DNA from: Hyaloraphidium curvatum
Lineage: Eukaryota > Monoblepharomycota > Hyaloraphidiomycetes > Hyaloraphidiales > Hyaloraphidiaceae
Length of the DNA stretch: 64,000 nt
Direction of reading: 5' to 3'
NCBI GenBank assembly: GCA_025558095.1
Contig: JAIVFI010000009.1
Coordinates: 310,001 to 374,000 of the forward strand
Part shown: positions 12,063 to 54,953 of the stretch, piece by piece
Position numbering within the stretch: the first letter of the stretch is position 1
How the letters are laid out: every line of letters begins with the position of its first letter
Translations under genes and position numbers: made by a program
Notes under the pieces: generated by a model
The model's input: the letters and a program-made list of their open reading frames with translations, nothing else
What the model was told of the DNA's origin: nothing
Database searches by the model: none

Positions 12063-15000
12063 ATGACGACCGGCGAGGAGGGCGAACGCCCGGCGACGAT
12101 CTTGGAGCTCTTTTGGGACCTCGCCTCGTTGGATGCCGCGGTCCGTTTGGCCGCCGCGGAGAAGCTGGTGACCGCCCTCGACGGTTTCCAGCAGGACTTT
12201 GAGCCGGCCGAACCCTCGGACGACGAGTCCGAGGAAGAAAGCGGCGCTGATGCGGTGGCCAAGGCCAAGAAGGCCGAACGGACCTTGGACGCGCTGTGCG
12301 CCCCGGACGTCTCCTACTCGGTCAAGCGGCTGATCCGCGGCCTCCCCTCCTCGCGCGAAGGTGCGAGGCAGGGATTCGCCGTGGCCCTCACAGAGCTGCT
12401 GGCCAAGCTCCCATATCTCTCTCTTGGCACTGTTCTGGACCTGTTGGCAAAGTACACGGCCACGACGGGTGCCATGAAAGGCCAGGAGGAGAAGGAAATG
12501 CTCCTCGGCCGCCTGTTCTGTGCCATGGCCATCGTGGAGGCTCGGGTTCCCGGACGGCGTGACACGAGCGAGGCCGACATTGTCCGCCTCGTCGAGCTCC
12601 TCCTTGCCTGCGCCAGTGCGAAGAGCTACCTGATCGAGCCTGCCTACGCCGTTCTCGTGATGCTCCTGGATCAGATGAAGGCGAGGGGCGATTCGTCGAC
12701 GGAGCTCGCGGACAAGGTGGTCCGCACGGTGCTGAAGGACGGTTTGCCCACATTCGAAGACGTTTGGTTCGCCGTCGAGGCCCAGCGGACGTTTCCAGAC
12801 CTTGACTGGCCTGGGATCATTCCCACCCTGAAAAAGGGCAGGCCTCTCCACCCTGCCAGCCTTTCTCAGGTCATCGACATCTTTATGGAGTCTTCGCACG
12901 TCCATCCGCGCCTGCATAGGGGATGGGAGACCATCTTGGACCTTGTTTTGGCGGCGGGATCGGTTGCGGGCGAGGACTCGTCGCCCAGGAAGGAAAAGAA
13001 GTCCAAGGGCAAGGTGATCGGCCTCGACGAGTTTTGGAACCAGCTCGTTGAAGGTGTGATCCCTGGGTTTCTGTGATTTCGGAGTTCGTGCTCACCCCTT
13101 GCTTCCAGAGCGCCTGTTCAACTCCTCACACGAGCGCAAGTTCCTGGCCCTCCGTCTCTTTGAGAAGCTCCTCCCGCGCCTGACCCCGGAGCAGATCCCG
13201 CGCGTGTTCACCCCCAACTTCCTCCGCACGCTCGCCAACAACATGGGCGACGCCTCCAACTACCTCCACAAGGCCGCGCACCACGCGGTACGGGCCGTGC
13301 TGGAGGCCACCAAGGAGCGCCGCCACCTGGCAGTGCCCTTTGCCACGCGGCTGCTCTCAGCCAACCCCTCGTTCGACCGTAAGAGCCGGAGCAAGACGGC
13401 TGAGGCGCTCGTGGCGGCCATGGACCCCGAGGGCTCGGCCGAGTTCGCGGGCTACCTCAGGCGGGACTTCCTGCGCCCGCCCGAGGGCGGGTTGGGCACG
13501 GACGCGCACAGGCGGTGGTGTGCGGACCAAATGGCCGCGCTCGTGCGGGCCAGGCGGGCGGCGCTGCCGCGCGAGGCGGCCGCCGCGACGCTGCGGTTCT
13601 TGTTTGCCTGCGGGCTGGTCGAGACGGACGATCTCCCCGCCGAGACGGCCGAGGAACTGCTTGGCGATGCCGAGGGCCCGGAACCCGCCCTTTCGGCAGA
13701 TTCGAGGGCCGCGAGCAGGGACCGGTTCCTCGCCGCGCTCTCGGAGCTGTGTACCCCGCAGCACACGGGCGGCAAGGGTCCCGCCGCTGACCCCGCTGAG
13801 GATGCGGGCCCCGCGGAAGAGAGGCCCGCGGCCTACTGGGCTCGGGAGATGTGCGCCTTTGCTGCGGACATCGAGGCCCGCGAGGGCGTCGAGCTGCTCC
13901 GCCCGCTGTCCGAAGCCGCAGCCGAGGCGCGCAAGCGCGGCACCAAGCTTGTCAAACGAATCCGCGAGCGCCTCGCGGCCGGCCCGGGCAAGGCCGAGGC
14001 TTCGCAGCTAGCCGCGCTCGAGATGCTGGTGCTGCACATGGTCCTGCAGCTCTACTTTGAGCCCAAGGAGGCGCAGGACCTGCTCGGCGAGCTGGAGGAA
14101 TGCTTCCAGAAGGGCTTGTCGGACAAGGCGGTCCCGCGCAAGCGCAAGTCGGCCGAGATGGAGGACGGGGCCGACGGCGCCTCGCCGCAGTCTGTGGAGG
14201 TGATCGTCGACATTGTTCTCAGCCTGCTCTCGCGGCCTTCGGCCTTGCTGCGCAACGTGGCCGAGCAGGCCTTCCGCGCGTTTTCGGCGGGGCTTACCCC
14301 GGCGGCGGTGGACCTGGTGCTGGCGGTGTTGGAGGCCAAGGATGGCGCCGCAGATGGCGTCGTGGAGTTGACGGACGACGAGGATGAGGAGGATGGGGGC
14401 GAGGAGGACGACATGGAAGTGGACGAGGAAGATGGGGCGTCGGAGTCCGGATCGTCTTCGGGCGGATCTGAAGTGGACAGCAATGACGAAGAAGAAGGGG
14501 ACGGCGAGGAGAACGGGGTGCTGGACCAGGAGCTACAGCAGCTGCGCGCGGACCTCGCCAAGGCCATGGACGCCGAGGATCTGATCGCTTCCGGCGACGA
14601 GGGCTCGGACGCCGAGAGCGAGGACATGGACGACGATCAGATGGCGGCGTTCGACGAGAAGCTGGCCGAGGTGTTCCGCAACCGCAAGAGCGCCAAGGGC
14701 GAGCGCCAGAGTGGGTCATCCGCGGGCCAGGGATCCTCGCATTTGGCTGACGCATGCCTGCAACAGACGCCAAGAAGCAGCTCGTCCACTTCAAGCTCCG
14801 CGCCCTGGACCTCCTCGACATCCACTTCCGCCGCACCCCCGACTCCCCTCTGGCGCTGCGCTGCGCCGTCTCCCTCCTCGAATCCCTCCGCCGCACCCCC
14901 ACGGACGCCGCCTCGGCACCCCTGCGGGACAAGCTCTCCTCCCTCCTCCGCAACCGCGTCCTCAAGGCCAAACCCGCGCGCGACCCCACCCTCGCTTCGG

Positions 15001-15737
15001 ACGCCGAGTCGGCCCTCTCGCGCGCCCTCGAGCTGGCGTCCCGCGCGCCCGACGCCCCCTTCGCCTCGCTCTGCTCCTCCGCCTGCCTCCTCGCCCTTCG
15101 GCAGTGCGATCCCGCCGCCGGCGCCCGCGCCTACGCGGGCGCGCTGGCCGCATTTGTTTCGGGCAAGGGCGGATACCGCGCCGCGCTGTTCCTCAACCTC
15201 GCGGAGCGCAACCCGCCCGCGGCGTGGGCGGTGCTCAGGGAGGCGGCGGGGGGATTGGGGAGGGGGAAGGGGTATCCCCTCGCGCAGGCGTACGGGTTCG
15301 CGGCGGCGGCGTTCCAGAGGCTGCCCAAGGAGGTGGGCTGCGCTGCGCTCGGAGGGCGATCGGGTGCTGATCGGTTGCCGCAGGCGTCCGAGGAGGAGAA
15401 GGAGGCAGCCATCGGAGTGCTGCGGGAGCTGGCCGGTGCCGCGGCCGAGGCGTTTTCGGGTGGCCAGAAGGGGAAGGAAGCGGCGGGCAAAAAGGACAAG
15501 AAGGACAAGAAGGCGAAAAAGGCCGCGGACGCCGAGTCGCCCGCGGTCCCCGCGCTGCCCGCCGAGCGGCGCAAGGAGATACTCAAGCACCTCCTTGCCA
15601 TGGCGCGGCGGGCGCGCAACCTGCTCGGCGACGGGTGGGAGGCGGCCAAGGGGTCGCTTGGGCTGGACAAAGCCGCGGCGGCGGCGGGATCGGAGGACAA
15701 GGTGCGGGGGCTGGCGGGGCAGCTGGCCGGGCTGTGA
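12063..15737 (+). CDS. POL5: POL5 / MYBBP1A (DNA polymerase phi) homologue
   Basis: POL5/MYBBP1A is a nucleolar HEAT-repeat protein that supports rRNA transcription and 60S assembly, despite its polymerase name. The ATG at 12063 starts MTTGEEGERPATILELFWDLAS, followed by the family pattern DAAVRLAAAEKLVTAL. Exon 1 carries YSVKRLIRGLPSSREGARQGFAVALTELL, the most conserved segment. It ends near 13066, where an intron of about 43 nt joins it to ERLFNSSHERKFLALRLFEKLL. Exon 2 runs to about 14710 and has a long acidic stretch (EDEEDGGEEDDMEVDEEDG) near 14380. Exon 3 starts near 14768 (DAKKQLVHFKLRALDLLDI), probably has one more intron near 15335-15390, and ends with a Lys-rich KKDKKDKKAKKA stretch. 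Total length is around 1190 residues, typical for the family. Confidence 0.85.
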
Positions 15738-15920
15738 GGGCCGTCCGAGGCTCGGGATGTGTATGGGTGAACGCTCAATTGATGACTAGAAATCCAGCAT
15801 AAAGTCCGAGTCCGGCCGCCAAAGTATGTACAAGATGCCAAATCGACGATCCCGCGCGTCAATGTCGTGTGAATGTACAGGTGGAGTTGTGGGGGCGAGC
15901 TTGGCCGCGCCCGCGCGTTG

Positions 15921-16498
15921 TCATGCGACGTCGCAGAGCAGGTTCCGTTCCTGGGCACCGCGTAGGACGAGGTCAGTCGCTCGACGGATGGACGAGCTAC
16001 GCCCGGCTCCCACCATGATGAACCGCCCCTCCTTGTACCGCTGGCTGCTCTCGCTGGCGTGCAGGTACTTCCAGCCGAGGATGGTGCAGCACGACTTGCA
16101 CAGGATGTCGCAGACGACGTGCGGGCCGGTGGTCATGATGCGCTCCGCGGGGGGACCTTCCAGCACGTTGTACACCCTGTCGAAGAGCCAGGCGCGGCCG
16201 TGGTGTCCTGTTCCGATGGAATCGGAGAGGTGGGGGATCGATCCATCAGTGCTGTTCGGCGGCGCGGGGGCGGCCACGGCCCACCCTGGAAGCTCTTCGA
16301 GATGACGTGGTGGTGCAGCGACAGGTGGATCCCGCAGGACGAGCAGGCGAGGATGCGGTGCTCGGGGTGGTAGTGGTGGCCGGGGAATGCGCGCGAGGGC
16401 GAGCCGAGGGGGGATGCGGGGTCGTCGTCGATCGATGCCCGCGAGTCCGAGTCCGAGTCGGACGGCGGGTCGAGGTACACGCGCTGTATGATGCCCAT
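15921..16498 (-). CDS. Yippee-like zinc-binding protein (MOH1/YPEL)
   Basis: Yippee proteins are small zinc-binding beta proteins with a conserved pair of CxxC motifs; the yeast member is MOH1. The ATG at 16498 reads MGIIQRVYLDPPSDSDSDSR, a Ser/Asp-rich leader. It is followed by the Yippee core: HRILACSSCGIHLSLHHHVISKSFQG. An intron around 16230-16285 leads to HHGRAWLFDRVYNVLEGPP, then GPHVVCDILCKSCCTILGWKYLHASE and SQRYKEGRFIMVGA. CSSC and CKSC are the two zinc knuckles. The last residues extend past the usual core and end at 15921. The family identification is very firm; the cellular role of Yippee proteins is poorly defined (E3 ligase-associated in yeast and animals). Confidence 0.92.
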
Positions 16499-16750
16499 CT
16501 GTGTTTCTGGGGTGTGGGCCGGTGCCGGGTGGCGGGGCTCCGGGATGTGGCTTCGGGCGCGGGCGGGGGCGGGGCGACAGGACGCCGCCCGGGATCGGCA
16601 GCCCGCGATGTGTGCGATCGGGGTGCCGCTCCCGGCGGCGGAAAAGGGGCGGACCGGGGGTGTCGTGACCTATCGGCTGCACACGGAGCTTGCGCCGGTG
16701 CGCTGCTGGCTGATCGCCTTCTGATCGGTTTCGTCGCGCAGGTGCGTCCG

Positions 16751-19661
16751 ATGTTCGGGGTGCGGCGCGGCGTGTGCCCGCGGCGGCCCCGGGCAGCCGA
16801 TGCGCGGCTCGCGGCGGCGACGTTTGTCGCGGCGGGCGGCGACGGCGCGGGGCAGCCGCCCGCGGCGCGCGTGTTCGGGCGGCTGCGCGGCCTGCTGGCG
16901 CTGCGGCACCCGCACGTCGCGCGGCTCGTCGACGCCGCAAAGGGCCGCCGCGACAGGCTGTACGCCGTGAGCGAGCACTGCGCGGACGACGCGGCGCGGT
17001 GGCGCGCCGCCTTCTCGGGCCACGCGCCGCTGCCCGCCGTGCGCGCCGCCGCATTCGAGCTGCTCGCCGCGCTCGTCTTCCTGCACGACAACGCCATCGC
17101 CGTCGGCAACCTGTCGGCACGCAACGTGCTGCTGGCCGGCGGCCCGGGCGCCGTCGACGCGTTCCCGCACCGCGTCAAGCTGGCGGCCTGGGCGCTCTGC
17201 CACGCTTCGGCCGGCGGCGCGGACGTGGCATTCCCCGTCACGGACCCATTCACGGTGCCGCCAGAGGCCGTCGCGGACCCGGGACACGTGCCGGACGCCG
17301 CGGCGGACGTGTGGGCCTTTGGCGTGCTGCTCGTCGAGCTGTGGACAGGCACCTTGCCGCTCTTTGCGCCCCCGGCGGCGCCGGATGAGGGACCCGACGC
17401 GTTCCTGGAGCGCATTCGCGCGTCGTTGGCCGCGGTGGCCGATTTGGCCGACGTGCCGGACCCGTCGGGCCCGCGCGCGGGCGGCCACCCGGCGCTGGAC
17501 GACTTTTTCGCCGACGCGTCGGTGGACCTGCAGCTGCGCGACCTCGCGGCGTCCTGCCTGCGGTGCGACCCCGCATCGCGCCCGTCTTCCGCGGAGCTCT
17601 TTTCCCACCCCTTTTTCGACGCGCACCCGGCACCGCGGGGCGTGCGCGACCCCGAGGATGCCGAGGCCTTTTCGGACCTGCTCGAGGACGACTTCCTCGA
17701 CGCCCCTCCCGCCGCCCCGCCGGACCCCGTGGCATGCCTGGACCTCGCCACGCTGTACCACCTGTGGCGCCTGGCCGGAGGCGACCTCGACGCCGAGCTC
17801 TCGCGGCAGGGCGCGCTGGCGTTCCACCCCGCCGTCGCCCGGGTGCCGCGGCTGGCGAGGCTGGCGGCGCAGCCCGAGGATGCGGCGGCGGACGCGGGCA
17901 TGTCCGATCCGGCGAGGGCGTTCTGCGACCGCGCGGCGGTGCTGGACACTTCGAGGCTCGAGGAGCGGCTGCGGCAAGCCGTCCCCGCGGCCAACGGGCC
18001 GGCGAAACCCCCGCGACGGACAGCGGAGCAGCGGGGCAGCTCGCCCTTCTATTGGGACGATCCGTTGCTGCTTGACAGATCGGGCGCGGGGAGGACGACG
18101 ACGGAGCTGGAGCGGGATCCGGTGCACCAGATGGCCAAGCTCGAGGAGTGGAGGGACCTGCTGCTCGCCTGGCCCGCAAACGCGGACGATATCGCCGCGG
18201 CTGCAAAGGGCGGCATCCCTCCGGTATGTCTGTCCCTCCTATCGCGCTTCTACCCACACGCTGACCTTCCCATCACGCAGCTCCTCCGAGGCCGCATCTG
18301 GGCCGCACTCCTGGGCATCCGCGGCGACCCCTCCGTCGCCTACGGCTTCCACGACCTCGCCGCCGACTCGGACGCCGACCGCCAGCTGGACCTCGACATC
18401 CCGCGCTGCCACCAGTACGACGACGCCATGGCCACGCCGCAGGGCCACGCGGCGCTGCGGAGGCTGCTCAAGGGGCTGCTGGCCGCCGAGAGGGGGAGGG
18501 TGGTGTACTGGCAGGGCATGGACTCGCTGGCGGCCACGTTCCTGTCCGTGAGCTGGGAAGACGAGGCGCTGGCCTTCTGCTGCTTCAGGGCGTTCGTGGA
18601 GAGGTACCTGGCGAGGTTCTTTGTGCACGACAATTCGACGACCATCCAGGAGTGGGTGGCGCGCGGGCAAGCCGCCGGCGGCGTGGCTTCTGACGCTCGT
18701 CCGGTACTGTTTCTAACCCACAGGTACATGATCTCGTTCCGGCACATCCTGTCGTACCACGACCCCGAGCTCTCCACTTACGCCGACCGCATCGGCCTGC
18801 AGCCGGACCTGTTTGCAATCCCCTGGTTCATGACGCTGTTTGCCCACGTCTTTTCGCTGGGCAAGGTTCACCATCTCTACGACAAGGTTCTCGTTGGGCC
18901 GCCGGGGCTGCCGCTCTTTGTCGGGGTGGGCGTGCTCAGGCAGATGCGTGACAAGCTGCTGGTGCGGGACTTCAACGACGTGCGTTCCACTTTGTCGCTC
19001 TTTGGCTCTCTGCTGACGTGCCGCACAGTGCATGCTCCTCTTTGCCGACCTCCCCGACACCATCGAAATCGACGCCTGCCTAGACGACTCCCTGCGCATG
19101 CTCCGCTGCACCCCGCCCACCCTCCTCCCCCCGGACCTCGCCCCCCGCAACCCGGACCCGACCGACCCCGCGTCGGTCGACCCGCTGCAGCGCAAGCGCG
19201 AGCTCGCAGGGCGCATCTCCCTCCCCGACGCCGCCGCGCAGCGGCAGCACGCGCTGCTCCTGGACGTCCGCGGGGAGGACAGCTGGACCACGGCGCACGC
19301 GCTCGGCTCCGTGGGGGTGTTCCCGCCGCGGCCGCAGGGGATCAGGGGGTGGCTGCACGCGGTCGGGGAGGCGTACGGCTACATCACGGTCGTAGGGGAC
19401 GAGGAGAACGACGGGATGGCGGTGGGTCGGCGGGCGTTCGCTTCGGTGGATGCTGCGTGCTGACGGCGTTCGTATGGACAGTTCTGCGAGGCGCTCGTCC
19501 GCGCGGGCTTTTCGCGCGTCGCGCTTCTTAATGCCCCCTTCGACGAGGTTGGAGCGAGGGGCGAGCTCCCCCTGTGCCCGTGCGAGGGCGCGGCGGAGGT
19601 CTACGGCTCGGGGGCCGAGCGGACTGTCGTTTTGAGGTGCCAAGGGGTCAATGTCCAGTAG
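16751..19661 (+). CDS. TBCK: TBCK: pseudokinase + TBC (Rab-GAP) + rhodanese-like protein
   Basis: TBCK joins a kinase-like domain, a TBC Rab-GAP domain and a rhodanese-like domain; it acts on membrane trafficking and growth signalling. The ATG at 16751 begins MFGVRRGVCPRR. The kinase-like part (about residues 40-300) has VGNLSARNVLL where kinases have HRD-x-K-xx-N, and KLAAWAL in place of DFG. It is therefore a pseudokinase, as in animal TBCK. Next come LATLYHLWRLAGGDLDAEL and the TBC domain, with LLRGRIWAALLGIRG, LDIPRCHQYDD, VYWQGMDSLAATFL and AIPWFMTLFAHVFSLGK. The rhodanese-like part starts near 19240 (HALLLDVRGEDSW) and ends at 19661 after a final short exon. Introns are near 18222, 18690, 18980 and 19425. 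The stop is 29 bp from that of the converging phosphorylase gene. Confidence 0.9.
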
Positions 19662-19690
19662 CTGATCCATTCCCGCCCGAGATGGCACAA

Positions 19691-22600
19691 TTAAACACTA
19701 GAGATACCCAAACAAAAGCTTACGTCACCGGGCACTGCGGAGGGGCAGCGATGAGCGAGGATCCGCGGATCAGTGACCTGACCGAAACGTACGGGCTCGA
19801 TGTGCCAGATCTCCCGGGCATAGTCCTCGATCGAGCGGTCCGAAGTGAATTTGCCCATTCCGGCGGTGCAGAGGAGCGACTTCTTGGCCCACGACGTCTT
19901 GTCCTTGTACGCCTCGCGCACGTGCTTGTGCGCCTCGAGGTACGAGTCAAAGTCGGCGTTGACGAGGTAGTAGTCGTTCTTCGGCTCGATCGTGTCTGGA
20001 GAACAGCGCGTTTAGAAGCCAGCCTGAGCAGGCGACCGAGGAAGCCCACTGAGCAGGGGGTCGAAGACGCGGCCGTCGCCGAAGGTGCCGTGGCGGATGA
20101 CATCGCAGACCTTGGCCACCTTGGGGTTCATCTGGTTCTGGCCGTTCCTGTTGGCCTGGCGGATGCCCTCGACCTCGGGCGTGAGCACGCCAAAGAAGAA
20201 GATGTTGTCTGCAGGGGAGGGTAGAAGCTCAGCACCTCCACGAAATACCAGCCCGGATGAATCCCACCCTTGCCGACCTCCTCGCCAATCTCAATGTTGG
20301 CGCCGTCGACGGTGCCGAGGATGATGCCGCCGTTGAGCACGAACTTCATGTTGGACGTGCCCGAGGCCTCGGTGCCGGCCGTCGAGATGTGTTGCGAGAT
20401 GTCGTTGGCCGGGATGATGACCTCGGCGAACGAGACGTTGTAGTTGGGCAGGAAAACGCACTTCATCACCGAGCTGACGTCGGGGTCGTTGTTGACCACG
20501 TTGGCGACCGAGTTGATGAGCTTGATGACGAGCTTGGCGATGAAGTAGCCCGGCGCGGCCTTGCCGCCCAGCATGACCACGTGCGGCGTCTCCTTGGCGC
20601 GCTCTTCCGGGGTCATGGCCTTGATCTCGAGATAGCGGTGGATGACGCCGAGGATGTTCATGAACTGGCGCTTGTACTCGTGGAGCCGCTTGACTTGGAT
20701 GTCGAACATGAAGGTCGGGTCCACCTCGACCCCGGTGGCCTGCTTGACGAACTCGGCGAGGCGGATCTTGTTGACGTGCTTGATGTCCATGATCGTCTTG
20801 AGCACCTCGGGATCGTCGGCGTACTTGCGGAGCTCGGCGAGCTTGTTGAGGTGCTTGAGCCAGTCGTCGTTGCCGAGCTTGGAGGTGATGAAGGACGAGA
20901 GCTTGGGGTTGCACTGGTTGAGCCAGCGGCGGGGGGTGACGCCGTTGGTCACGTTGACGAACTTGCCATCCCCGTAGAACTCGACAAAGTCCTTGAAGAT
21001 CTGCGGGGGCGAAGGATGCGTCAGCTCACCCTACACACTACTGCTCGTTTGACGGAGCCCACGGTGGTCTTGATCAGCTCAGAGTGGAGAGCCGCGACGC
21101 CGTTGACCTTGTGGGAGCCGACAATGGCCAGGTAGGCCATGCGGACGTACTGAGGGTAGCCCTCCTGGATCAGCGACATCCGGGCAAGGCGGTCGTTGTC
21201 GCCGGGGTAGCGCTTGCGGATCTCCTCGACAAAGTACTGGGGAGGATGATCAGCGAATGATGCGGCATCGCGAAGCAATCAGCCCACGTAGTTGATGTCG
21301 TAGATCAGCATCATGTGGCGCGGCAGCAAATCGGCAATCAGGGGCACGGCCCAGCGTTCCAGCGCCTCGGGCAACACGGTGTGGTTCGTGTAGGAGTAGG
21401 TGCTCGTCCTGTGGCGGGGTCCGTCACCGCGATGGCCGCTGCCTCCGGCTTCCCGTTACCCACACAATCTCCCAGGCCTCCTGGAACTCCAGACCCTCCT
21501 CGTCCACGAGAATCCTCTGCAGCTCCACCACGCCGATAACGGGGTGGGTGTCGTTGAGCTGGATCGACACCTGCGACGGGAAGTCCGACCACGGGCGGTT
21601 GGTCTTCTTAAAGCGGCGGATGATGTCCTGGAGCGACGCGCAGACGAAGAAGTACTGCTGCTTCAGGCGAAGAATCTTGCCCAGCATGAAGTTGTCGTTG
21701 GGGTACAGCACTGGTAGGTGGCGGACAGCGCTTAAGCAACGGGAAGCGAACGGCACGGTGGCGCTCACCGGCGGAGATGTTCTCGGCCGACTTCTGCTCC
21801 TCCACGGCACGGTCGTAGTTGCCCTCGTTGAACGACGAGAAGTCGAACTCCTTCTGGGGCTTGGCGCCCCACAGCCGGATGTTGATGCAGTTCTTGGTGT
21901 GGAACCCGGGGATAGGCACGTCGTAGGCCACGGCCAGCACACGCTCGCCGCCCTCCCAGTAGTGCTTGTCGTCCTCCTTCCGGACCCAGCCGCGGAACCG
22001 GACGTCGTATGTGACATCGGTACGCTCAATCTCGAAGGGGTTCCCGTAGGCGAGCCAGTAGTCGGGGACCTCGACCTGGTAGCCGTCGATGATCTTCTGC
22101 TTGAAGATTCCGTACTCGTACCGGATGCCGTAGCCCCAAGCGGCGTAGTCCAGCGTAGCAAGGGAATCTGAAGTCGACGATCGAAGGCAAGTCGAACACA
22201 AACCAATGACGCGTCAGCACCCCTCCCGGCACGTTGCCCGGACAAAACCCACCCATGTAGCAAGCAGCAAGGCGGCCGAGACCTCCGTTCCCGAGCGCCG
22301 CGTCCACCTCGTCGTTGATCAGGTCCTCGATCGTGAACCCGAGCTGGTCCAGTGCCTCCCTGAACTGCTCCTTAGCGCCCAGGTTCAGCATCGCGTTGTC
22401 GAAGAAGCGGCCCATGAGGAACTCGAGGGAGAGATAGTAGACACGCTTCGGGTCCTGGGAGGTGTGGAACTGCGGGTCGACGCGTCGGAAACACGCGGAT
22501 CAGTGGACGGCTTATGGCACAGATTGCGGGGCGCGGCGACCAACCTGCTGCGTCGCGTTCCAGCGGTCCACCAGACGGTCACGGACCGAAAACGCGGCAG

Positions 22601-26576: not shown

Positions 26577-26709
26577 GGTTTGCTGGGAATTGTGGGCAGA
26601 GTTCTGAGATAGAAGTTGGCCGCTCCTCATAATATGTGTGTTTTAAATGTCACGTTAGATCACCCATGTCACCCCGCGCGCGCGCCTAACCCGGCTATCA
26701 AAAATACGG

Positions 26710-26785
26710 GTGACTTTCCCAAACTATACTGCCGGCTGGCAGAGGTGACTTTCCAGAGCTATACCGTATAGCTCCGAAAAGTCAC
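26710..26785. promoter_or_regulatory. Candidate recombinase site, left end: 41-bp palindrome plus half-site
   Basis: Bases 26745-26785 form an imperfect 41-bp palindrome. The core GAGCTATAC-C-GTATAGCTC is a perfect 9+1+9 palindrome, flanked by GTGACTTTCCA on the left and CGAAAAGTCAC on the right. A third, related half-site (GTGACTTTCCC followed by AAACTATAC) lies in direct orientation at 26710-26729. Serine recombinases bind short dyad sites of this size, so I read this as a crossover or accessory site; that is inference. Confidence 0.6.
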
Positions 26786-27672
26786 GCGGCAGTTCACCTC
26801 ATAGGCCGACAAGGTCGGCGACCCCGTGCGCGTCCCACTCTCCGCCCGGCCGCGCGCCGGCCCGCGCAGCGTCGCAGCAAGTACCGCCGCACGTGCCGGT
26901 GGGCGCGGCGGACGCGCTCGGCTGGGGACCTTGTGTGTGAGCGGCACCCCGGGCCTCGAGGGGCCCTGCGGTGTTCCTCGTGGAATGCCCCTCGCCGAGC
27001 TCGGCTGGCTCGGCGGCAACTTTGGCTACGCCGTTTTCTACGGGGATGCCGGGCCCATTGTTTCCTGGAGCTGTTTGTGGAGCCGGGCCGTGGACCTTCG
27101 CGGTGGCGGCGAGTCCGAGGCACTTCCTCGGCTTCGCATGCCTATTTGGAGGCAGGCGTCGCCGCATGCATCTCGCGAGGAACATATTCTCTAGGATTGC
27201 GCGGCTGGATCCGCCCTTGGAGGCCGCTGTACGGGGTTCGCTGCCGGTCCCCGCCGCGGCCCTGGATGTCGGCCCCCACGCTCTCCGCTGGGCGAGGACT
27301 GGCCAGGGAATCAGGGGTAGCAGACCTTCATGGTGCTGGCCAATGCCGTTGGCTAGAAGGATCGCGGCTCCGAGGTTCCTGGCGACAGCTGGGGCACTTT
27401 CGTTGTTTCGGACGCGTTGCTCCCTCACCCCTGGCCGTTACCTCCGACAAGCCAAGATTGGACCTTTGAGAAAGTTCGGCAATCAAAAGAAGCATTGCCC
27501 TCTTGTTTGCCAGAGGTCCTACAGGCCGCAACCCTGTTGCGTACGGGGGGACCCGCACGGGCGCGTATCAGCTTCTTTGCATCTGCCAGAACGCGGCTGC
27601 CGGGGTAACGGGGCCGGGATATGGGTATTTGAAGATGGATAATAGAACGAATTGCGTTCCGATGGACGCTTC

Positions 27673-28767
27673 CTACATGCCCGGCCCCTTCCACGCCGCC
27701 AGCACGCGCCCCGCGAACCTCTCCTTCCCCTCCCGCTCAGTCAGGTACTTGACGGCCTTTGCAACATTGCGAGCAAGCGAGGAGGCATCCAGGTACCCTC
27801 GCTGAACCCCTTTTGGCGCGATGATCAATGTCCTTTCCTCGCTCCCGTAGGACACCGAGCAAGAATGCCGGCGACGACCCATGACGCACTTCCTGAGGGT
27901 CTTGCTCCCCGTCAAGCTTGGTCAGGTAAGGCGCAAGAATCGCAGCTTGCTCGGCCTCGGGCTCGTGGATCACAAGCTCGGGCGGTGCGCGCTTCGTTCC
28001 GTGGTACTCCCGGCCGGCGAGCTCACCCGACTCCACCGCCTCGCGAACCTCTCCTCCAGGGAACCGAGCTCGGAAGCGGGTCCCAAAGGGTGAGAACCTG
28101 GACTGACCGATGTTGCGCGTTGATCTCTGCTTCGCCGAGTCGGCAGTACGTGCGGCAATCTTGTCGGGCGGAGGTGGGTGCCTTCGGGGTCAGAGACTGC
28201 GCTGACATCGCTGTCACCCTGCAGATGCACTCACAGAGGAGCGCTCAGTGTGCGCCGTTAGGGCTCCTAGTACGAGGAACATGTAGGCCATGTTGGAAGT
28301 TGGATTCAAGGGCCCGTGCACAAGTCCTTGAAACTCGACGCTGGCAAAGTTCTTGCCCATGCGATTCAGCTCCTCCACGTCCGCCAGGATGAAAGCAGCG
28401 TTCCTGCCGAGCCTATCAACCCGGGCAACGGCCAGGCCCACGATCGTTGCGTCGTGAGAGAGCCTCCTGAATGCTTCCTCAAGTCCGGGCCGCTGCTTCC
28501 TCCCGTCACCACGCGGGTAGGTGCCGCTGAGAACGTCGCTGTAGACAACTACTATCTTCCCTCTACTATCTCCCTCTTGTTGTCTGTCGCCCAGCGCCGC
28601 ACCAGTCCCTCCTGGTCCTGCAGCGAGATGTTGTTCACATTGTCGTCCTTCGACTTGCGCACGTATGCGATCCAGCGCCCATCCCTCGGCCGAGGATTCG
28701 CGAGGGCCACCAACGACTCCAGCGCCTCTTCGACTGCCTTCAGCGCCGGCTTTTCCCGGGCGGCCAT
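27673..28767 (-). pseudogene. Serine recombinase, left copy (frameshifted)
   Basis: This mirrors the right copy, with the ATG at 28767 and the stop at 27673-27675. A partial tandem duplication of about 14 bases near 28550-28570 (repeated CTACTATCTYCC) breaks the frame between the first and second parts of the catalytic domain. One extra A in a run near 27812 breaks it again late in the gene. The region that is broken in the right copy (near 28026) is intact here: VESGELAGREYHGTKRAPP runs on into VIHEPEAEQAAILAPYL. The catalytic Ser lies before the first break. As read, this copy cannot make the full protein. Confidence 0.75.
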
Positions 28768-28952
28768 GACCGGCAGCCCCTCCAATGGCAAGTGATTCGT
28801 GCTCGGAGCGGAGTGGTCCCGACGTGACTTTTCCGCCGGCAGCTGCCCCGCGGAGAGTCCCACGGTTCCAGTGCCCCACGAGGCGATGGCGACGGCTCAG
28901 GAGAGCCGCGTTAAGGCCTCTAACTGGCCGTCACGAGGTCGCGAGTGAGAGA

Positions 28953-28987
28953 CCTGCTCGGGTGACAGTCACACAAACTCGGCCAAT
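28953..28987. other. Central spacer of the palindrome
   Basis: This 35-base unique spacer joins the two arms. Inside it, 28962-28972 reads GTGACAGTCAC, a perfect 5+1+5 palindrome that reuses the GTGAC motif seen at the ends of the 41-bp sites. It may be the junction at which two monomers were joined. Confidence 0.5.
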
Positions 28988-29172
28988 TCTCTCACTCGCG
29001 ACCTCGTGACGGCCAGTTAGAGGCCTTAACGCGGCTCTCCTGAGCCGTCGCCATCGCCTCGTGGGGCACTGGAACCGTGGGACTCTCCGCGGGGCAGCTG
29101 CCGGCGGAAAAGTCACGTCGGGACCACTCCGCTCCGAGCACGAATCACTTGCCATTGGAGGGGCTGCCGGTC

Positions 29173-30251
29173 ATGGCCGCCCGGGAAAAGCCGGCGCTGA
29201 AGGCAGTCGAAGAGGCGCTGGAGTCGTTGGTGGCCCTCGCGAATCCTCGGCCGAGGGATGGGCGCTGGATCGCATACGTGCGCAAGTCGAAGGACGACAA
29301 TGTGAACAACATCTCGCTGCAGGACCAGGAGGGACTGGTGCGGCGCTGGGCGACAGACAACAAGAGGGAGATAGTAGCTGTCTACAGCGACGTTCTCAGC
29401 GGCACCTACCCGCGTGGTGACGGGAGGAAGCAGCGGCCCGGACTTGAGGAAGCATTCAGGAGGCTCTCTCACGACGCAACGATCGTGGGCCTGGCCGTTG
29501 CCCGGGTTGATAGGCTCGGCAGGAACGCTGCTTTCATCCTGGCGGACGTGGAGGAGCTGAATCGCATGGGCAAGAACTTTGCCAGCGTCGAGTTTCAAGG
29601 ACTTGTGCACGGGCCCTTGAATCCAACTTCCAACATGGCCTACATGTTCCTCGTACTAGGAGCCCTAACGGCGCACACTGAGCGCTCCTCTGTGAGTGCA
29701 TCTGCAGGGTGACAGCGATGTCAGCGCAGTCTCTGACCCCGAAGGCACCCACCTCCGCCCGACAAGATTGCCGCACGTACTGCCGACTCGGCGAAGCAGA
29801 GATCAACGCGCAACATCGGCCAGTCCAGGTCTTCCCCCTTCGGGACCCGCTTTCGAGCTCGGTTCCCTGGAGGAGAGGTTCGCGAGGCGGTGGAGTCGGG
29901 TGAGCTTGTCGGCCGGAGTACCACGGAACGAAGCGCGCACCGCTCGACCTTGTGATCCACGAGCCCGAGGCCGAGCAAGCTGCGATTCTTGCACCGTACC
30001 TGACCAAGCTTGACGGGGAGCCAGACCCTCAGGAAGTGCGTCACGGGCCGTCGCCGTCATTCTTGCTCGGTGTCCTGCGGGAGCGAGGAAAGGACATTGA
30101 TCATCGCGCCAAAGGGGTTCAACGAGGGTACCTGGATGCCTCCTCGCTTGCTCGCAATGTTGCAAAGGCCGTGAAGTACCTGACAGAGCGGGAGGGGAAG
30201 GAGAGGTTCGCGGGGCGCGTGCTGGCGGCGTGGAAGGGGTCGGGCATGTAG
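29173..30251 (+). CDS. Serine recombinase (resolvase/invertase family), right copy; one frameshift
   Basis: The enzyme cuts and rejoins DNA through a serine nucleophile. The ATG at 29173 starts MAAREKPALKAVEEALESL. The catalytic domain begins WIAYVRKSKDD, where Ser in YVRKS is the expected nucleophile. ISLQDQEGLVRRWA, PGLEEAFRRL and VGLAVARVDRLGRNAAFIL follow; the last is the conserved R-x-DRLGR block. Next is FASVEFQGLV, then LGALTAHTERSS. A GT..AG intron at 29692-29766 (75 nt) removes two in-frame stops and joins ERSS to IAARTADSAKQRSTRN, restoring the usual start of the long helix. A single missing base near 29913 shifts the frame before LVIHEPEAEQAAI, and the C-terminus ends at 30251. There is no long zinc-ribbon or coiled-coil region typical of large integrases, so the DNA-binding part is short or diverged. 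Confidence 0.82.
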
Positions 30252-30493
30252 GAAGCGTCCAGCGGAACGCAATTCGTTCTATTCTCCATCTTCAAACACG
30301 ATATCCCGGCCCCGTTACCCCGACAGTCGCGTTCTGGCAGATGCAGAGAAGCTGATACGCGCATGGGCGGGTTCGCCGTATGCAACAGGGTTGAGGCCTG
30401 TGGGACCTCTGGCAAACAAGAGGGCAATGCTTCCTTTGATTGCCGAATTTTCTCAGTGGTCCAATCTTGGCTTATCGGAGGTAACAGCCAGGT

Positions 30494-31165
30494 GTGAAGG
30501 AGCAACGCTTCCGAATCAAAGAAAGTGCCCCAACTGTCGCCAGGAACCTCGGAGCCGCGATCCTTCTAGCCAACGGCATTGGCCAGCACCATGAAGGTCT
30601 GCTACCCCTGATTCCCTGGCCAGTCCTCGCCCAGCGGAGAGCGTGGGGGCCGACATCCAGGGCCGCGGCGGGGACCGGCAGCGAACCCCGTACAGCGGCC
30701 TCCAAGGGCGGATCCAGCCGCGCAATCCTAGAGAATATGTTCCTCACGAGATGCATGCGGCGCCGTCTGCCTCCAAATAGGCATGCGAAGCCGAGGAAGT
30801 GCCTCGGACTCGCAGCCGCCGCGAAGGTCCACGACCCGGCTCCACAAACAGCTCCAGGAAACAATGGGCCCGGCATCCCCGTAGAAAATGGCGTAGCCAA
30901 AGTTGTCGCTGAGCCAGCCGAGCTCGGCGAGGGGCATTCCACGAGGAACACCGCGGGGCCCTTCGAGACCCGGCAGGTGCCGCTCACACACAAGGTCCCC
31001 GGCCGAGCGCGTCCGCCGGGCCCACCGGCACGTGCGGCGGTACTTGCTGCGACGCTGCGCGGGCCGGCGCGCGGCCGGGCGGAGAGTGGGACGCGCACGG
31101 GGTCGCCGACCTTGCCGGCCTATGAGGTGAACTGCCGCGTGACTTTTCGGAGCTATACGGTATAG
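30494..31165 (+). other. Conserved open stretch in the outer part of each arm
   Basis: The outer 0.9 kb of both arms (26799-27428 on the left, mirrored here) stays open for about 210 codons in the recombinase direction, and also in the opposite direction. Plus-direction text such as VARNLGAAILLANGIGQHHEG competes with opposite-strand text such as MPLAELGWLGGNFGYAVFYGDAG on the left arm. High GC makes such open frames common. I cannot decide whether a second gene is encoded or on which strand, and I recognise no family. Confidence 0.25.
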
Positions 31166-31214
31166 CTCTGGAAAGTCACCTCTGCCAGCCGGCAGTATAG
31201 TTTGGGAAAGTCAC
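31139..31214. promoter_or_regulatory. Candidate recombinase site, right end: 41-bp palindrome plus half-site
   Basis: Bases 31139-31179 repeat the 41-bp palindrome of the left end in inverted orientation, with the same GAGCTATAC-type core. The extra half-site is at 31195-31214. Both arms preserve the dyad. Confidence 0.6.
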
Positions 31215-31321
31215 CCGAATTTTTGATAGGCGGGTTAGACACGCGCGTGGGGTGACTTGGGTGATCTAACGTGACATTTAAAACACACATGGCCGCGCGC
31301 GGCTGAGGACGAAGAATCGCA

Positions 31322-34148
31322 ATGGCCTCCGCGCTCAGTCGCGTTAGCGCGATTGCGATGGAGGCGTCGCGAGAGCTTCGTGCGGCTCGCGGAGCGCCGC
31401 GGCCGGGAGGGGAGGCGGCCGAGCTCCGCCAGCTGCTGGACTCTCGGTGGGCAACCCCGCCGACTGAGGGGTAGAACGCGCTCTGACGCGTCTTGCAGCT
31501 TCGAGGCCGAGAAGCTAGATGCTATGAAACGCCTGGTCAACGTGGGCACGTGGACGCCGCGCGTCGGCGACGTGGATCTGCTGACGCGTCTGGCTGGGGA
31601 ACGCGCTTCCAGCTCATGAGCCGGGGCCGCGATTGCGCCGAGTTCTTCCCGGCAGTGGTGAAGAACGTGGCTTCGCCATCGGCAGAGGTCCGTCGCCTCG
31701 TCAGGATCTTCATTCAGCGATACGCGGAGCGGGAGCCGGACATTGCGCTTCTCTCTGTCAACAGCTTCCAGGTGACCATTCGTGCCTGGGAAACTGTCCT
31801 GATCATTGGATAACAGTCGAGCAACGTGTTTTACAGAAAGACTTGACGGACAAGAACCCCACCATGAGGGCCACAGCTCTGCGCGCCATGTCTTCCATCA
31901 AAGGTTCGCCGAGGGACCGGGCGCAGCACAGTCCAGCCCTGAAACCGCCTTCATTGCAGTTCCCGTCATTGTCCCGATCGTCATGCTGGCCATCAAGAAG
32001 GCCCTCACGGACCTATCGCCGTACGTGCGAAAGGCAGCGGCCGCAGCCGTCGCCAAATGCCACGGGTTGGTGGTTCCGTGCCTGGGAACGAACATCCAAT
32101 AACGGGGTTTTCAGGCTCGACTCTAGCCAGGAGGAGTCTCTTGTTGAGCTACTGGTACAATGCCTCGGCGACCTGTCCCCAATTGTCGTCGGGACCGCTG
32201 TGGCATCCTTCAACTCCGTGTGCCCGGACAAGATGGAACTCCTGCACAAGCTTTACCGACGGTACTGCAAGATGCTGCTCGACGTGGACGAGTGGGGCCA
32301 ATTGGAAATGCTGGACGCCCTCCATCGCTACGGTGCGTTTCCTCTTGTCTGTGTCCGTCTACGTTCTCAGACCGTCATTTCAGTGCGGTCCAACTTCTCG
32401 GATCCCGCTGCCGCGGCGACGGAGGACGTCGACATCACCCTCCTGCTGAACTCCACCGCGGTCCTCTTTCTCTCCCGCAACCCCGCCGTCGTTCTCCGGG
32501 CGGTTGCTCTCTACACCGACCTCGCGCCTCAGGCAAAATGGACAAAGGTCGTTCCGCCACTCCTACGGCTGGCAAAAGCCGAACGGGAGCAGCAGTTCCT
32601 GGCTCTGCGCGCCATCCTCTCCCTCGCGTTCCGCGCCCCGGGCCTGTTTTCCGATCGCCTGCGCCATTTCGTCGTGTTCCCCCTGGAGAACCGGCCCGTG
32701 CGGGACCTGAAGCTGCGAATCATGGTCGCGGCGGCTTCCGAGGCCAACGTGGCGGACGTGTGGAGGGAGCTGCAAGCCTACATGAGGAGCCCTGAGAGGG
32801 AGCTTGTCCTCGCTGCCGTCAAAGCGGTCGGGGATCTGGCTGCGAAGCTGCCCGACATGGCCGAGATCTTTGCCAACGGGCTCATGGGGTTGATATCCAA
32901 GCGAAACGGTGGGTTGCGCCATTCGGACGTACCTTCGGCAGCTCATTCCGGGTTCGGTCCAGAGAGCCTGCTGCCGGACATTCTGCTCACCCTGCGCGTG
33001 CTACTCCAGCTCAAACCTTCGGCCCCGTCGATTGCGCGGCTCACGAAGCTTTTGGATCTTGTTTCTTCGCCCACCGCCAAGACCAGCATCCTGTGGCTGG
33101 TCGGTGAGTACTGCGCGCTCATCCCCGACGTCGCGCCCGACGTCGTACGACGGTGTGCGAAGGAGTTCAAGGAGCTGGAAGGCCTGGAGAACGTGGGGTT
33201 GAAGCTACAGATCTTGACGGCGGCGTGCAAAGTGTACGTCGAGCTCGCACGGCCAGAGGAAGGCGCGACGGCCGGGAAACGGCTGGAGGGTGCCGCGGCA
33301 GGGCGAATGGAGGCGATCCTCCGCTATCTGCTGGAGATGGCGCGGTTTGATATGGACTACGACGTGCGGGATCGTGCGAGATTCCTGCGCGCCTTGGTTT
33401 TGGAGGGCGAGGGAACGGAAGCTCTGCGTAGGGGGGCGCGGGACGTGCTGATCGGGAAGAAGAAGGTCGGCTCAAGAATCGACGCTGACGGTGAGTTCCG
33501 CATTTCAGGTTCCCACCGCCCAGCACTTACGTCGCCGGCCGTGCAGCACATTTGGACTTTCCGCTCTCGACCCTTTCCCACCTCCTAGGCCATGCCGTTC
33601 GGGGCTACCGGCCATTGCCGGACTGGTCGGCAAGTCCGACGGATCCCTCTGTACGCACCGTTGAGGGCGACGACCCATGGACGAGGACAATGGCGCCATC
33701 TCCGGTCGCGGACCGCACCAGCCGGATGGGAAGTCCCGTGCGGCCGTCGTCGGCTGTACGGAATACGCCGCCTCCCACCGTTAAGGTGAAGAAGAGGGTC
33801 GTGAACCTGGACAACTGGTTCGATGAGAGCGCATCTGACGACGATGCCGCGGAGGGAGCGGAGCAAGAGGGAAGCGGCGAGGAAAGCGGGGAAGATAACG
33901 ATGCCGGTGGGACGGGAGAGGAGGAAACTGAGGAAGAAAGCGGCGAGGAGAGCGGTGACGAAGCGTCGTCGGATGAGGACGACGCGGATGCCGCAAAGTC
34001 GCTGCGATCGCGACAGGATGCTGCCCAGGACGGCGCGGAACCGATCGCGAACCTGTCGGCCACCACGGCACGCGGTCCCGAGGAAACCGTGGACGATACG
34101 GACGAGGAGGACGAGGCAGTGCCGATACGGCAGGGGAGCAAATCATGA
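31322..34148 (+). CDS. APL6: AP-3 complex beta subunit (beta-adaptin)
   Basis: Beta-3 adaptin is a large subunit of the AP-3 coat, which carries cargo from endosome or Golgi to lysosome or vacuole. The ATG at 31322 starts [20 protein letters not shown], then ELRQLLDSR. After an intron comes [14 protein letters not shown], then [64 protein letters not shown] and [25 protein letters not shown]. Next come [27 protein letters not shown] and many HEAT repeats to about 33490. The hinge from about 33780 is strongly acidic and Ser-rich ([21 protein letters not shown]), the typical AP-3 hinge that separates it from AP-1/AP-2 beta. The gene ends at 34148 after the hinge, so no ear domain is seen. At least seven introns are present. 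The start lies 31 bp from the palindromic element. Confidence 0.88.
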
Positions 34149-44617: not shown

Positions 44618-45597
44618 CTATTGACCCTCTATCGAAAGGTCGGTCCTCAGTTTAGGGACGTCCATGTAACCGCCGAACTCCTTGGAAAAGGTGGCGGCGG
44701 GAGGCGGGTCGGCTTCGGCCGCCTTCTTGGCCTTCTTCCCCCGAGCCGGCTTTGCCGGGACCGCGAATTCGGGAGCGGCAGCCAGCGGATCGGGCGAGTC
44801 GGCCGCGGGCTCGACCACCACCTCGTGATCCTGCTCCCCAAGCGACTGGACCTCCTGTGCTTCCTCCTCTTCGTCTTCGTTGAGCGCGGCGGCCTGGAGC
44901 AGCGCCGCCATCGACCCACTCTGCGCGGGGCCTTCCTCGCCGCCCTGCGCTTCGGTGTCGTAGTAGCCGATCTCGGCGCCGCCGTAGCCCTCGGCGTAGC
45001 CGACCTCCTCCTCGGCGTACTCGGCCTCGTGGACCTCCTCCCCGCCGGGGACAAAGTCGCCCGGCCCCATGCCGTACGGGTAGACGGTCCAGCCGGCCCG
45101 GGCGTTGGTGTGGTACGTGGTCTTGCAGTGCTTGAGGAAGTTGGAGAGCGTGGTGAATCCCTGGCCGCAGCACACGCAGCGGTAGTGGTTCGAGGGGCAG
45201 ATCTCGTGCTGCCGGACCGTCAGTGCCGTCGGTGCCCGACGGCGCGCGATCTACCCACGCATTGGGCGTTGAACTTGGTCGAGAAGGTCCGGTTGCACCG
45301 CGTGCAGGTCATGCCGTCGGGGCCGAGCATGGTGTTGCGGAACCTGCAGTGGTTCTGCCCGTGCTTGACCTCCTGCTGCTCGACGATGCTGACGGTGAGC
45401 GGCGCCACCTCCTGGACGAAGTAGGCCCTGCGGTCCTCGCGGTTCTGCGGCTCGTCGATGATTGTGTGCTCGGGGCACGGCTCGGCGCCGGTGTGGCAGT
45501 TTGTCTTCATCTGGTTGCGCGGGGGCGCGAGCGGGTCGGCGACCCTGCGGGGGGCCTTTTTCGTCGGCGACGCCTTGGGTTTCGCGGCCCTGGGCAT
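44618..45597 (-). CDS. Putative zinc-finger protein, function unknown
   Basis: The ATG at 45597 starts MPRAAKPKASPTKKAPRRVAD, a basic leader. Two cysteine-based modules follow. The first, MTCTRCNRTFSTKFNAQC, includes CTRC. After an intron near 45205-45255, the second reads YRCVCCGQGFTTLSNFLKHCKTTYH, close to a C2H2 finger (C-xx-C, then H and H). The rest is Tyr/Glu-rich and acidic (EAEYAEEEVGYAEGYGGAEIGY), then EDEEEEAQEVQ, then the basic ARGKKAKKAAE, ending at 44618. I recognise the finger type but not an orthologous family. A nuclear DNA- or RNA-binding role is inferred. It is divergent from TRM8 (331 bp between starts). Confidence 0.6.
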
Positions 45598-45928
45598 GCT
45601 TGCGGCGGCGTGCGGCGACTTCAGAGGGTAAAAGGACTCGGAATCCGGCGGGCGCTGCGGGGGGCGGCGCGGATCCGCGGTGTGAGCGAGGCGGAAACGG
45701 GACGGCCGTGCGCAGCCGGGCGGGCGCCTTGCGTGCCCGCCGCCGGCCGCCCGCCGTGGCGCACCTTGAAAGCGATCCGCGGCTCGGATTCTTCCTGCGC
45801 CGGGCGGAGGATCCACGGGACGGCGGCGGCAGAGAGCTCCCAGACAGACTTCGTCTCAACGCGCGTGATGGCGAGGACGTGCCGTCCAACCATCAAAAAC
45901 AGCGCCTCGAAATCGCCCATTCACCGCG

Positions 45929-46913
45929 ATGTCCTCCTCCGAGCCTCCATCGGCTCCCGTATCCCTGCCCCAGAAGCGCTTCTTCCGGCAGCGCGCCCAC
46001 GTCAACGTCCTCTCGGACCACTTCCTCCGCTACCCCCGCACCCCCCGCGACGGCGACTGGGCCGAGATGTACCCCGCCTTTGTCCGGGGCACCAAGCGGC
46101 CCGCAGCGGACGACGAGGAGGGCGGGAGGAAGAGGGCGAAGAGCGCGGAGGAGGGGGCGGTGGAGGTGCCGGCCGAGACGGTGGAGGTGCTGGATGTGGA
46201 CGAGGAGGAGGAGCGCGAGCGGGTCTGGAAGGCGGCGAAAAAGGTCGAATTCGCGGACATTGGGTGCGGCTACGGCGGTCTGATGAGTGGGTTTCCTTGC
46301 CATGGATCCTCTTCCTTCCGCTGAGCTTCTTTCGCAGTCGAGCTGTCGCCGCTCTTTCCCGACACGCTCATGCTCGGCATGGAGATTCGGCACAAGGTCT
46401 GCGCATACGTGGACCAGCGGATCAAGGCACTGCGCGCCAAGGCGAAGGAAGAGGGCGGGCAGGCGTACGAAAACATCGCCGTGGTGCGGGGCAACGCCAT
46501 GAAGTACATGGCCAACTTTTTCGAGAAGGGACAGGTCGGTCGCCATAGCGGCCGACGGGATGAACACAAGCTGACCATTCCATTAGCTAAAGAAGATCTT
46601 TTTCCTCTACCCGGACCCGAACTTCAAGCGCCGCACGCACAGCCGCCGCATCATCTCCCCCAACCTCCTCTCCGAGTACGCGTACCACCTCGCCGTCGGC
46701 GGCCTGCTGTACACGTGTACGGACGTGCTGGCGCTGCACGAGTGGATGGTGGACAAGCTGGGGCGGCACCCGCTGTACGAGCGGCTGAGCGAGGAGGAGG
46801 TGCAGGCGGATCCGTGCAGGGAGGCGGTGTGGGGCGGGACCGAGGAGGGGAAGAAGGTGGAGCGGAACGGCGGCGGCAAGTGGATGTCGATCTGGAGGAG
46901 GATCGAGGCGTAG
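45929..46913 (+). CDS. TRM8: tRNA (guanine-N7-)-methyltransferase catalytic subunit (TRM8/METTL1)
   Basis: TRM8 with TRM82/WDR4 methylates G46 of tRNA using S-adenosylmethionine. The ATG at 45929 reads MSSSEPPSAPVSLPQKRFFRQRAH, containing the family QKRFFRQRAH signature, followed by NVLSDHFLRYP. An acidic/Lys insert (residues 55-95) is longer than usual. FADIGCGYGGLM is the SAM-binding motif I, followed by an intron and ELSPLFPDTLMLGMEIRHKVC. The next exon starts KIFFLYPDPNFKRRTHSRRII, where most homologues have FPDPHFK. It ends with LLYTCTDVLALHEWMV, then HPLYERLS, at 46913. Two introns are present. The stop is 43 bp from that of the converging ALKBH7-like gene. Confidence 0.93.
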
Positions 46914-46956
46914 TTTTCGCAGCGACAACATGCCATGACAACCGCCCAGCCCAGGG

Positions 46957-47769: not shown

Positions 47770-47909
47770 CTCCACCCAACAGCTTAAGCAGAGCTCAGAA
47801 AAGGTAGCTAGAGCCTGCCAGGCGCCCCAGTCGCGAGTGGTGCCGCGCGCGGGTTGAAAACCTCTCAGAAGCCAGGGAGGAGTGTACTTTTACTGTTCCA
47901 CAACTAGAA

Positions 47910-49628: not shown

Positions 49629-49824
49629 TCGATTGGGAATGCGGGGACGCAACTGGCCGTGCATCATGGATTCGGGATTACTGCATGCTATCCACGATCT
49701 GGAATGGTCGCCGTCGCCAATATTCGGTTCACGAGCATTTGACGTCAGATGTGGCGAAGCTCGAGGCTCGGGACCACGAATCCTGAAGGTGACTCGCCAT
49801 CCTCATCCCAAATCCAACAATGCC

Positions 49825-54323: not shown

Positions 54324-54953
54324 CCGGCCGATCGGCTCGGACACGCTTGTGCACGGTTGCTTGGAAGGGGAAAACGTACGGAGGGTAATGCCGGGCAGAC
54401 TGTCTCGAGACCTTCTAAAGTGTATTGCGGGCTACTTCCGCCTAATCAGCACGCTTTTCTCCACTCCGATCCGCTTTCTCACCCGGTCCGTCTCCCGATT
54501 CGGGGTGTCCCCGCCGGCCAAAAAATTGGTGTTGCGTTTCGGTGGCAAGAGGGCCCGGACCTTCGGTCGCCGCCGCCAACGCCCGCCCGCCGCCGGTCTG
54601 GCCCCGACATCGGTCTCCGCACGCACCGCCATCGCCGTGCTCGAGATCGGGAGACACTGGCGGGCCCTGTGAACTGCAGCGCAGCTGGGATGCGCAGTGC
54701 GATTGAATCGGCCGGCCGAATCCCGCCCGCGCGCGCGATCGCGGGGCATCGCTGCACTCCAGCCGACCCGATCGCGTCCACCACTCCCTGTCGGCATCGC
54801 AGCGGGGTAGCTTTGTGAGGCCGGGCGAGCTTCGCGCCCACCGATGGCCGCAGTCTCGCGCGGTGCACCGCCGAGGGAGGCATCCCGCGCCGATCTGTCC
54901 GATCCGCCCCGCAAACCGTGGGAAAGAAATTCACCGTCGTTTCTGCGCGTAAA
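54324..54953. other. Intergenic stretch
   Basis: 630 bp with no supported gene. It carries GATC- and GCCGCC-rich stretches and unsupported small frames. Confidence 0.35.

Follow-up and report, generated by a model that had tools for sequence, protein, structure and literature searches.

Hyaloraphidium curvatum (Monoblepharomycota) carries, on contig JAIVFI010000009.1 of assembly GCA_025558095.1, an imperfect palindrome in which two ~2.3-kb inverted arms flank a 35-nt spacer, with a serine recombinase (SR) gene in each arm. The palindrome occupies positions 26634–31290 of the 64,000-nt stretch analyzed here (contig positions 310,001 to 374,000), which we refer to as “the window”. The original prediction, made from the sequence of the window, suggested that the palindrome itself could be a mobile element. 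Here, we show that each arm is a 5′-truncated copy of a ~6.15-kb Crypton-like transposon that encodes two recombinases in tandem, a tyrosine recombinase (YR) and the SR. We describe the complete element, a second SR-bearing element in the same genome, the probable origin of the palindrome, and a possible role for the SR.

The palindrome and its setting

The arms and spacer are as originally predicted, and consist of the following parts:

26634..28952, minus strand: left arm, the right-hand ~2.3 kb of the Crypton-like element, 5′-truncated; 96.6% identical to L006:3930-6239 (the copy on contig C22)
26634, minus strand: 3′ terminus of the left-arm element, reading ...TTTAAAACACACAT; the same terminus is found in C22, C14 and the right arm
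28953..28987, no strand: spacer, 35 nt; right-arm element sequence from about 28955 (TGCTCGGGTGACAGTCACACAAACTCGGCCAAT)
28988..31290, plus strand: right arm, the right-hand ~2.3 kb of the Crypton-like element, 5′-truncated; 94.8% identical to L006:3897-6232
about 31290: 3′ terminus of the right-arm element

The reading of the spacer is based on matches to the copies on C22 (L006) and C2 (L007), which run on upstream of the left-arm breakpoint. Aligned with one another, the arms are 96.1% identical over 2321 columns including gaps (96.9% without gaps), with six gap openings, 72 differing bases and several indels. An independent repeat search of the window gave inverted pairs (I1-I7) that span the whole palindrome at 90-99% identity. 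Both arms end outward at the same element terminus, and both lack the left part of the element, i.e., the YR gene.

On both sides, the flanks of the palindrome are single-copy. To its left lies an EF-hand gene and to its right an adaptin gene (Adaptin_N), with DNA_pol_phi and UFL1 genes further out; the locus is therefore eukaryotic nuclear DNA. The palindrome fills a very short intergenic gap between divergent genes (EF-hand on the minus strand, adaptin on the plus strand), with both gene start regions apparently only some tens of bases away (flanks 26577-26633 and 31291-31322). The two outer ends of the palindrome show no visible target site duplication.

The complete element encodes two recombinases

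The assembly of H. curvatum comprises 32 Mb in 55 contigs. A DNA search of this genome with the inner, SR-containing part of the arm returned one complete copy on C22 and one on C2, and a search with the outer part returned more truncated copies, on C14, C13, C21, C8 and C2. At both L006 and L007, homology runs on upstream of the inner ends of the arms, with 87% identity over another 1.37 kb and a 366-bp block at 97.5%, and the order of the genes is the same in both, YR then SR. A search for single 2.3-kb copies and for further palindromes had been proposed with the original prediction. Single copies do exist, but those on C22 and C2 extend beyond 2.3 kb; no second palindromic copy was found in the same genome, where the arm query matched the window locus, the single copies on C22 and C2, and truncated fragments.

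The 3′ terminus (...TTTAAAACACACAT; ...ACACAT) is common to both arms and to the C22 and C14 copies, each with different flanking DNA, and the C8 copy has the same terminus with one base changed (ACACGT), again in different flanking DNA. We place the 5′ terminus at ATACAGTATAAATGGG since this is where a solo 38-bp copy begins on C10. The 3′ end (...ACACAT) is fixed by four copies and the 5′ end (ATACAG) by two; all that the ends have in common is a 2-bp AT. Together, the shared 3′ terminus and the 5′ terminus matched on C10 delimit a complete unit at about C22:417580-423731, i.e., ~6.15 kb, with the YR gene on the left and the SR gene on the right in the same orientation. The full-length element on C22 is itself flanked by pieces of an apparent LINE reverse-transcriptase gene in opposite orientations (C22:417300-417500 and 423732-424900), suggesting that this locus has also been rearranged.

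The YR protein of the C22 copy contains a GCR1_C domain (PF12550; E=2.4e-8, 34.6 bits, with a Pfam cut-off of 23), which is also present in the YR of the C2 copy. GCR1_C and NDC10_II are the only families that the YR matches in a Pfam scan; the DUF3435 domain of Starship captains is not among them. A relative of this YR (YR1) in the same genome, YR2, passes the NDC10_II cut-off at 41.5 bits, and the R, THxxR, W and Y align between YR1 and YR2. A pattern scan of IMG/VR found no relatives of the YR.

YR2 represents a second Crypton family (loci L052-L067, at C21:156540-171400, C49:7580-17030, C22:612000-616040 and C2:558926-572400). Its copies form head-to-tail arrays with 5.42-kb spacing, three on C21 and two on C49, and the array copies are nearly identical and therefore recent. 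No SR is detectable in YR2 elements, although some copies of YR2, as of the second SR family described below, were read only in part.

The serine recombinase gene

The SR gene has two exons, separated by a GT-AG intron of 75-91 nt across copies, according to predicted splicing. In the palindrome, its parts are as follows:

29173..29691, plus strand: right-arm exon 1; open over 173 codons, encoding the catalytic domain and its YVRKS, SLQDQ and RVDRLGR motifs; Pfam Resolvase E=1.2e-15
29692..29766, plus strand: intron, right arm; 75 nt, GT-AG, with splice sites kept in the C22 and C2 copies
29767..30251, plus strand: right-arm exon 2; encodes a C-terminal domain with no recognized motif; a 1-nt deletion shifts the frame
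28235..28767, minus strand: left-arm exon 1; a 14-nt insertion shifts the frame
28160..28234, minus strand: intron, left arm; no difference from the right-arm intron
27673..28159, minus strand: left-arm exon 2; a 1-nt insertion shifts the frame

Mirror-image SR genes with catalytic motifs had been predicted. The Resolvase match and the motifs are indeed there, but both genes are frameshifted and each is split by the intron. Because of the frameshifts, the window locus is now inactive as a source of SR; by contrast, both exons are open in the C22 copy. The spliced protein has 334 amino acids, of which residues 33-185 form the catalytic domain (PF00239, Resolvase; E=5.1e-17), while the C-terminal ~145 amino acids match no family. 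At E<=1, PF00239 is the only domain found in the full spliced SR, with neither the PF07508 Recombinase domain nor HTH_7 or any other helix-turn-helix family detected, and the NCBIfam model transpos_IS607 scores 13.7 bits against a cut-off of 110. An AlphaFold2 model of exon 1 from the single sequence was uninformative (pLDDT 44).

Between the C22 and C2 copies, the SR differs with dS 0.215 and dN 0.037 (nonsynonymous to synonymous ratio, dN/dS, 0.17), indicating that the SR protein was under purifying selection while the family was spreading. The best matches outside the genome are phage invertases and plasmid recombinases, at ~33% identity over ~150 amino acids of the catalytic domain only, and degenerate-pattern scans of IMG/VR and GTDB contigs found no relatives.

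A non-coding stretch of ~0.9 kb follows the SR gene (L006:5194-6075, the outer part of the arms). It differs by only 5.9% between C22 and C2, as compared with 21% at SR synonymous sites and 18% in the SR intron, and a codon-position test for a hidden gene shows no periodicity. Given this low divergence and the lack of codon periodicity, the stretch may be a functional non-coding region.

A second SR family in an unrelated element

The same genome contains a second SR family (family 2), 34% identical to the SR of the Crypton-like element (family 1). It is carried by an unrelated ~8.2-8.4-kb repeat on C4, C34, C46 and C9:539 kb, in which no YR was detected. The family 2 gene has a 55-nt, GC-AG, phase 0 intron at the same codon boundary as in family 1 (EREQ|VRERT in family 2, ERSS|IAART in family 1), and joining the family 2 exons at this boundary raises the Resolvase score from 51.7 to 63.8 bits. 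An intron common to SRs this divergent implies a long eukaryotic history.

The repeat (loci L068+L028+L069 at C4:366968-375135, L029, L030 and L031) has open reading frames (ORFs) for the family 2 SR, a zinc-finger-like protein and a putative transposase (MARNKGDDAAKHG...). The putative transposase has no Pfam match, and so we make no claim that it is of the DDE type. A 7-bp repeat, GGTCCGG, is found on either side of the C4 copy. The C4 and C34 copies are about 99-100% identical; copies differ by a ~278-nt insertion/deletion and in the number of 14-nt half-sites. Adjoining the C4 copy, an ORF on the minus strand (L028:4856-5626) looks by eye like those of phage tail collar/fiber proteins (GTVVAYAG...CDGRAL).

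Candidate dyad sites

The strongest dyad in the 6.15-kb element measures 41 bp and is found ~110-150 bp from the 3′ end, with a third half-site after it. Both arms of the palindrome retain it:

31139..31179, no strand: 41-bp dyad, right arm; GTGACTTTTCGGAGCTATAC-G-GTATAGCTCTGGAAAGTCAC, candidate recombinase site
26745..26785, no strand: 41-bp dyad, left arm; the same dyad
31195..31215, minus strand: third half-site, right arm; GGTGACTTTCCCAAACTATAC, from a motif scan
26709..26729, plus strand: third half-site, left arm; from a motif scan

Allowing up to 2 mismatches, the half-site has 15 matches in the genome, all but one of them in copies of the element, whereas the reversed control has 0. 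The 8.4-kb element likewise has one outstanding dyad, of 32 bp with a 2-bp AG center, about 0.6 kb upstream of its SR gene. Shuffled sequence contains few or no such dyads for either SR-bearing element. These dyads may be the sites at which the SRs act.

Origin of the palindrome

Site patterns in a four-way alignment of the right arm (R), the left arm (L), C22 and C2 differ along the arms. The left arm groups with R at nine sites of the inner part and with C22 at none, but in the outer part it groups with C22 at sixteen sites and with R at one (Fisher P=3.2e-6). The change occurs somewhere in the interval from alignment column 567 to column 879. Two element lineages have thus supplied the outer halves of the arms, and the inner ~0.57-0.87 kb has been homogenized or copied. 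This combination of different outer halves and a shared inner part marks the palindrome as a secondary rearrangement.

The breakpoints of the two arms are no more than 35 nt apart. Break repair may have joined either two inverted copies or a truncated copy and a second lineage. The inner ~0.57-0.87 kb could then reflect fold-back copying and, later, either a switch onto a C22-like copy or gene conversion with one. Such events would fit inner breakpoints that are nearly symmetrical, mutations common to both inner parts, and outer halves that differ. We also considered an origin through a telomere resolvase or hairpin, an idea taken from PMC13236599, and rejected it since the center of the palindrome is not the dyad.

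Weighing the explanations

We consider it likely that a two-recombinase Crypton-like element, a palindrome formed by break repair, and an SR serving as an accessory resolvase together account for the locus. Several points weigh against this account. The NDC10_II match in YR1 (E=0.0019, 17.7 bits) is below the Pfam cut-off of 26.3. In the C22 copy, the YR gene is interrupted by at least one in-frame stop and its splice structure is uncertain; no fully intact two-recombinase copy was seen in the genome. Only the C22 copy spans the whole element, with the link between YR and SR resting on two loci (C22 and C2). Lastly, the 41-bp dyad has an odd, 1-bp center, less than ideal for the 2-bp stagger of an SR crossover; the dyad could instead be a YR core, with 17-bp arms around 7 bp.

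Alternatively, the SR could be the real transposase, or an alternative one, of the 2.3-kb half, inserted once beside a Crypton, such that the pairing is an accidental nesting that later spread as a unit. The 5′-truncated copies (R, L and C14), which retain the SR side or the 3′ end, are consistent with this idea, as are the purifying selection on the SR and its presence in a second element with no detected YR. However, no copy has a clean boundary at the inner end of the arms, where the single copies read through into the YR gene, and the two arms in the window, instead of sharing an inner terminus, end 35 nt apart. We consider this explanation unlikely.

Less likely still is the original proposal that the palindrome is itself a mobile SR transposon whose identical outer ends act as long terminal inverted repeats, with the inverted arms helping transposition. 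The palindrome does stop exactly at the same element terminus on both sides, within single-copy flanks, and it sits in a short gap between divergent genes as a single insertion might. Nonetheless, the copies found elsewhere are non-palindromic, and the complete unit includes a YR gene lost from both arms. The frameshifted SR genes, the different lineages of the outer halves and the lack of a visible target site duplication likewise argue against it.

An assembly chimera or fold-back sequencing artifact has to be considered because near-perfect palindromes are common long-read artifacts. We regard it as highly improbable, since sequencing fold-back would give identical arms and identical flanks, whereas these arms differ by about 4%, the flanks differ, and the outer halves have different nearest relatives. 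Bacterial contamination can safely be dismissed: Resolvase domains are typical of bacteria and the best outside matches are to phage and plasmid proteins, but these are only about 33% identical over 150 amino acids, and the conserved intron, the copies on several contigs and the eukaryotic neighbor genes agree with the earlier view that the locus is eukaryotic.

Comparison with known systems

CryptonF elements of fungi and oomycetes have a GCR1_C domain in the YR protein (Kojima and Jurka 2011, PMC3212892). The element described here resembles them in its single long YR protein, in which a probable NDC10/Crypton-type recombinase region precedes GCR1_C, in the HxxR...W...Y arrangement, and apparently in the lack of a clear target site duplication. 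CryptonF elements have 4-6-bp terminal direct repeats, for comparison with the 2-bp AT described above. Unlike CryptonF, the element adds an SR gene, is ~6.15 kb long and has the subterminal dyad. Accessory C48 peptidase genes and a Mariner fusion, MarCry-1_FO, have been reported in Cryptons, with no SR (PMC3212892). Our search of the open literature, which did not extend to subscription literature, Repbase or eukaryotic assemblies, found no Crypton with an SR; the nearest described elements are MarCry-1_FO (Crypton and Mariner) and IS607-Fanzor2 elements.

The original prediction also raised the possibility of an undescribed class of eukaryotic element. An SR-bearing mobile element in a eukaryote is indeed present, but eukaryotes and giant viruses were already known to harbor IS607-like SR elements with Fanzor2 (Bao and Jurka 2013, PMC3627910). 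Our SR differs in architecture from IS607 TnpA, in which the DNA-binding domain is N-terminal: its catalytic domain starts at residue ~33 and the ~145-amino-acid domain is C-terminal. General Pfam scans of the element's ORFs revealed no TnpB/Fanzor partner, although no search was aimed at these families.

Similarities to bacterial resolvases and invertases (gamma-delta, Gin/Hin) comprise the catalytic domain (~33% identical to phage invertases), the E-helix ERxxIxxRT motif and a dyad within the element. Differences from them are the ~145-amino-acid C-terminal domain without HTH_7, the spliceosomal intron and the hosts, which are eukaryotic transposons. In its organization, with a mobility enzyme, an accessory SR and a dyad site in one element, the element is functionally analogous to Tn3-type transposons, which combine a transposase with a serine resolvase and a res site. 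The mobility enzyme here is not TnpA, however, but a YR in the family 1 element and an unassigned protein in the family 2 element.

Other features of the window and assembly

Window positions 13000-20000 and 45000-58500 are blocks of 65-76% GC, compared with about 60-62% in the rest of the window. They hold long overlapping ORFs, two of which, at 47.9-52.1 kb, have no Pfam match. An Rfam search of the window gave no match, and no chlorophyll-binding genes were found in the assembly.

Proposed mechanism and implications

Cryptons have been proposed to move by way of a circle. By analogy, the YR would excise and integrate the element through such an intermediate, and the SR would act as an accessory resolvase/invertase-type enzyme at the 41-bp dyad near the right end, where it could, for example, resolve dimers or tandem copies. 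The head-to-tail YR2 arrays are, suggestively, the kind of product that a resolvase could reduce. The combination of an SR and one strong dyad within a larger mobile element recurs in the unrelated 8.4-kb element. We tentatively suggest, as a possibility of somewhat less than even probability, that an undescribed, intron-containing lineage of eukaryotic SRs constitutes a portable accessory module, used across transposon mobility classes at dedicated dyads, and that the element is a two-recombinase transposon comparable to Tn3.

SRs in eukaryotic transposons are known mainly from IS607-like elements. The SR described here has a different architecture, a spliceosomal intron and the mark of selection at the protein level, and it is common to two unrelated transposons, one of which also has a YR. 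Should the SR prove functional, resolvase-assisted transposons would exist in eukaryotes, and the enzyme would be a serine recombinase that is already adapted to eukaryotic nuclei.

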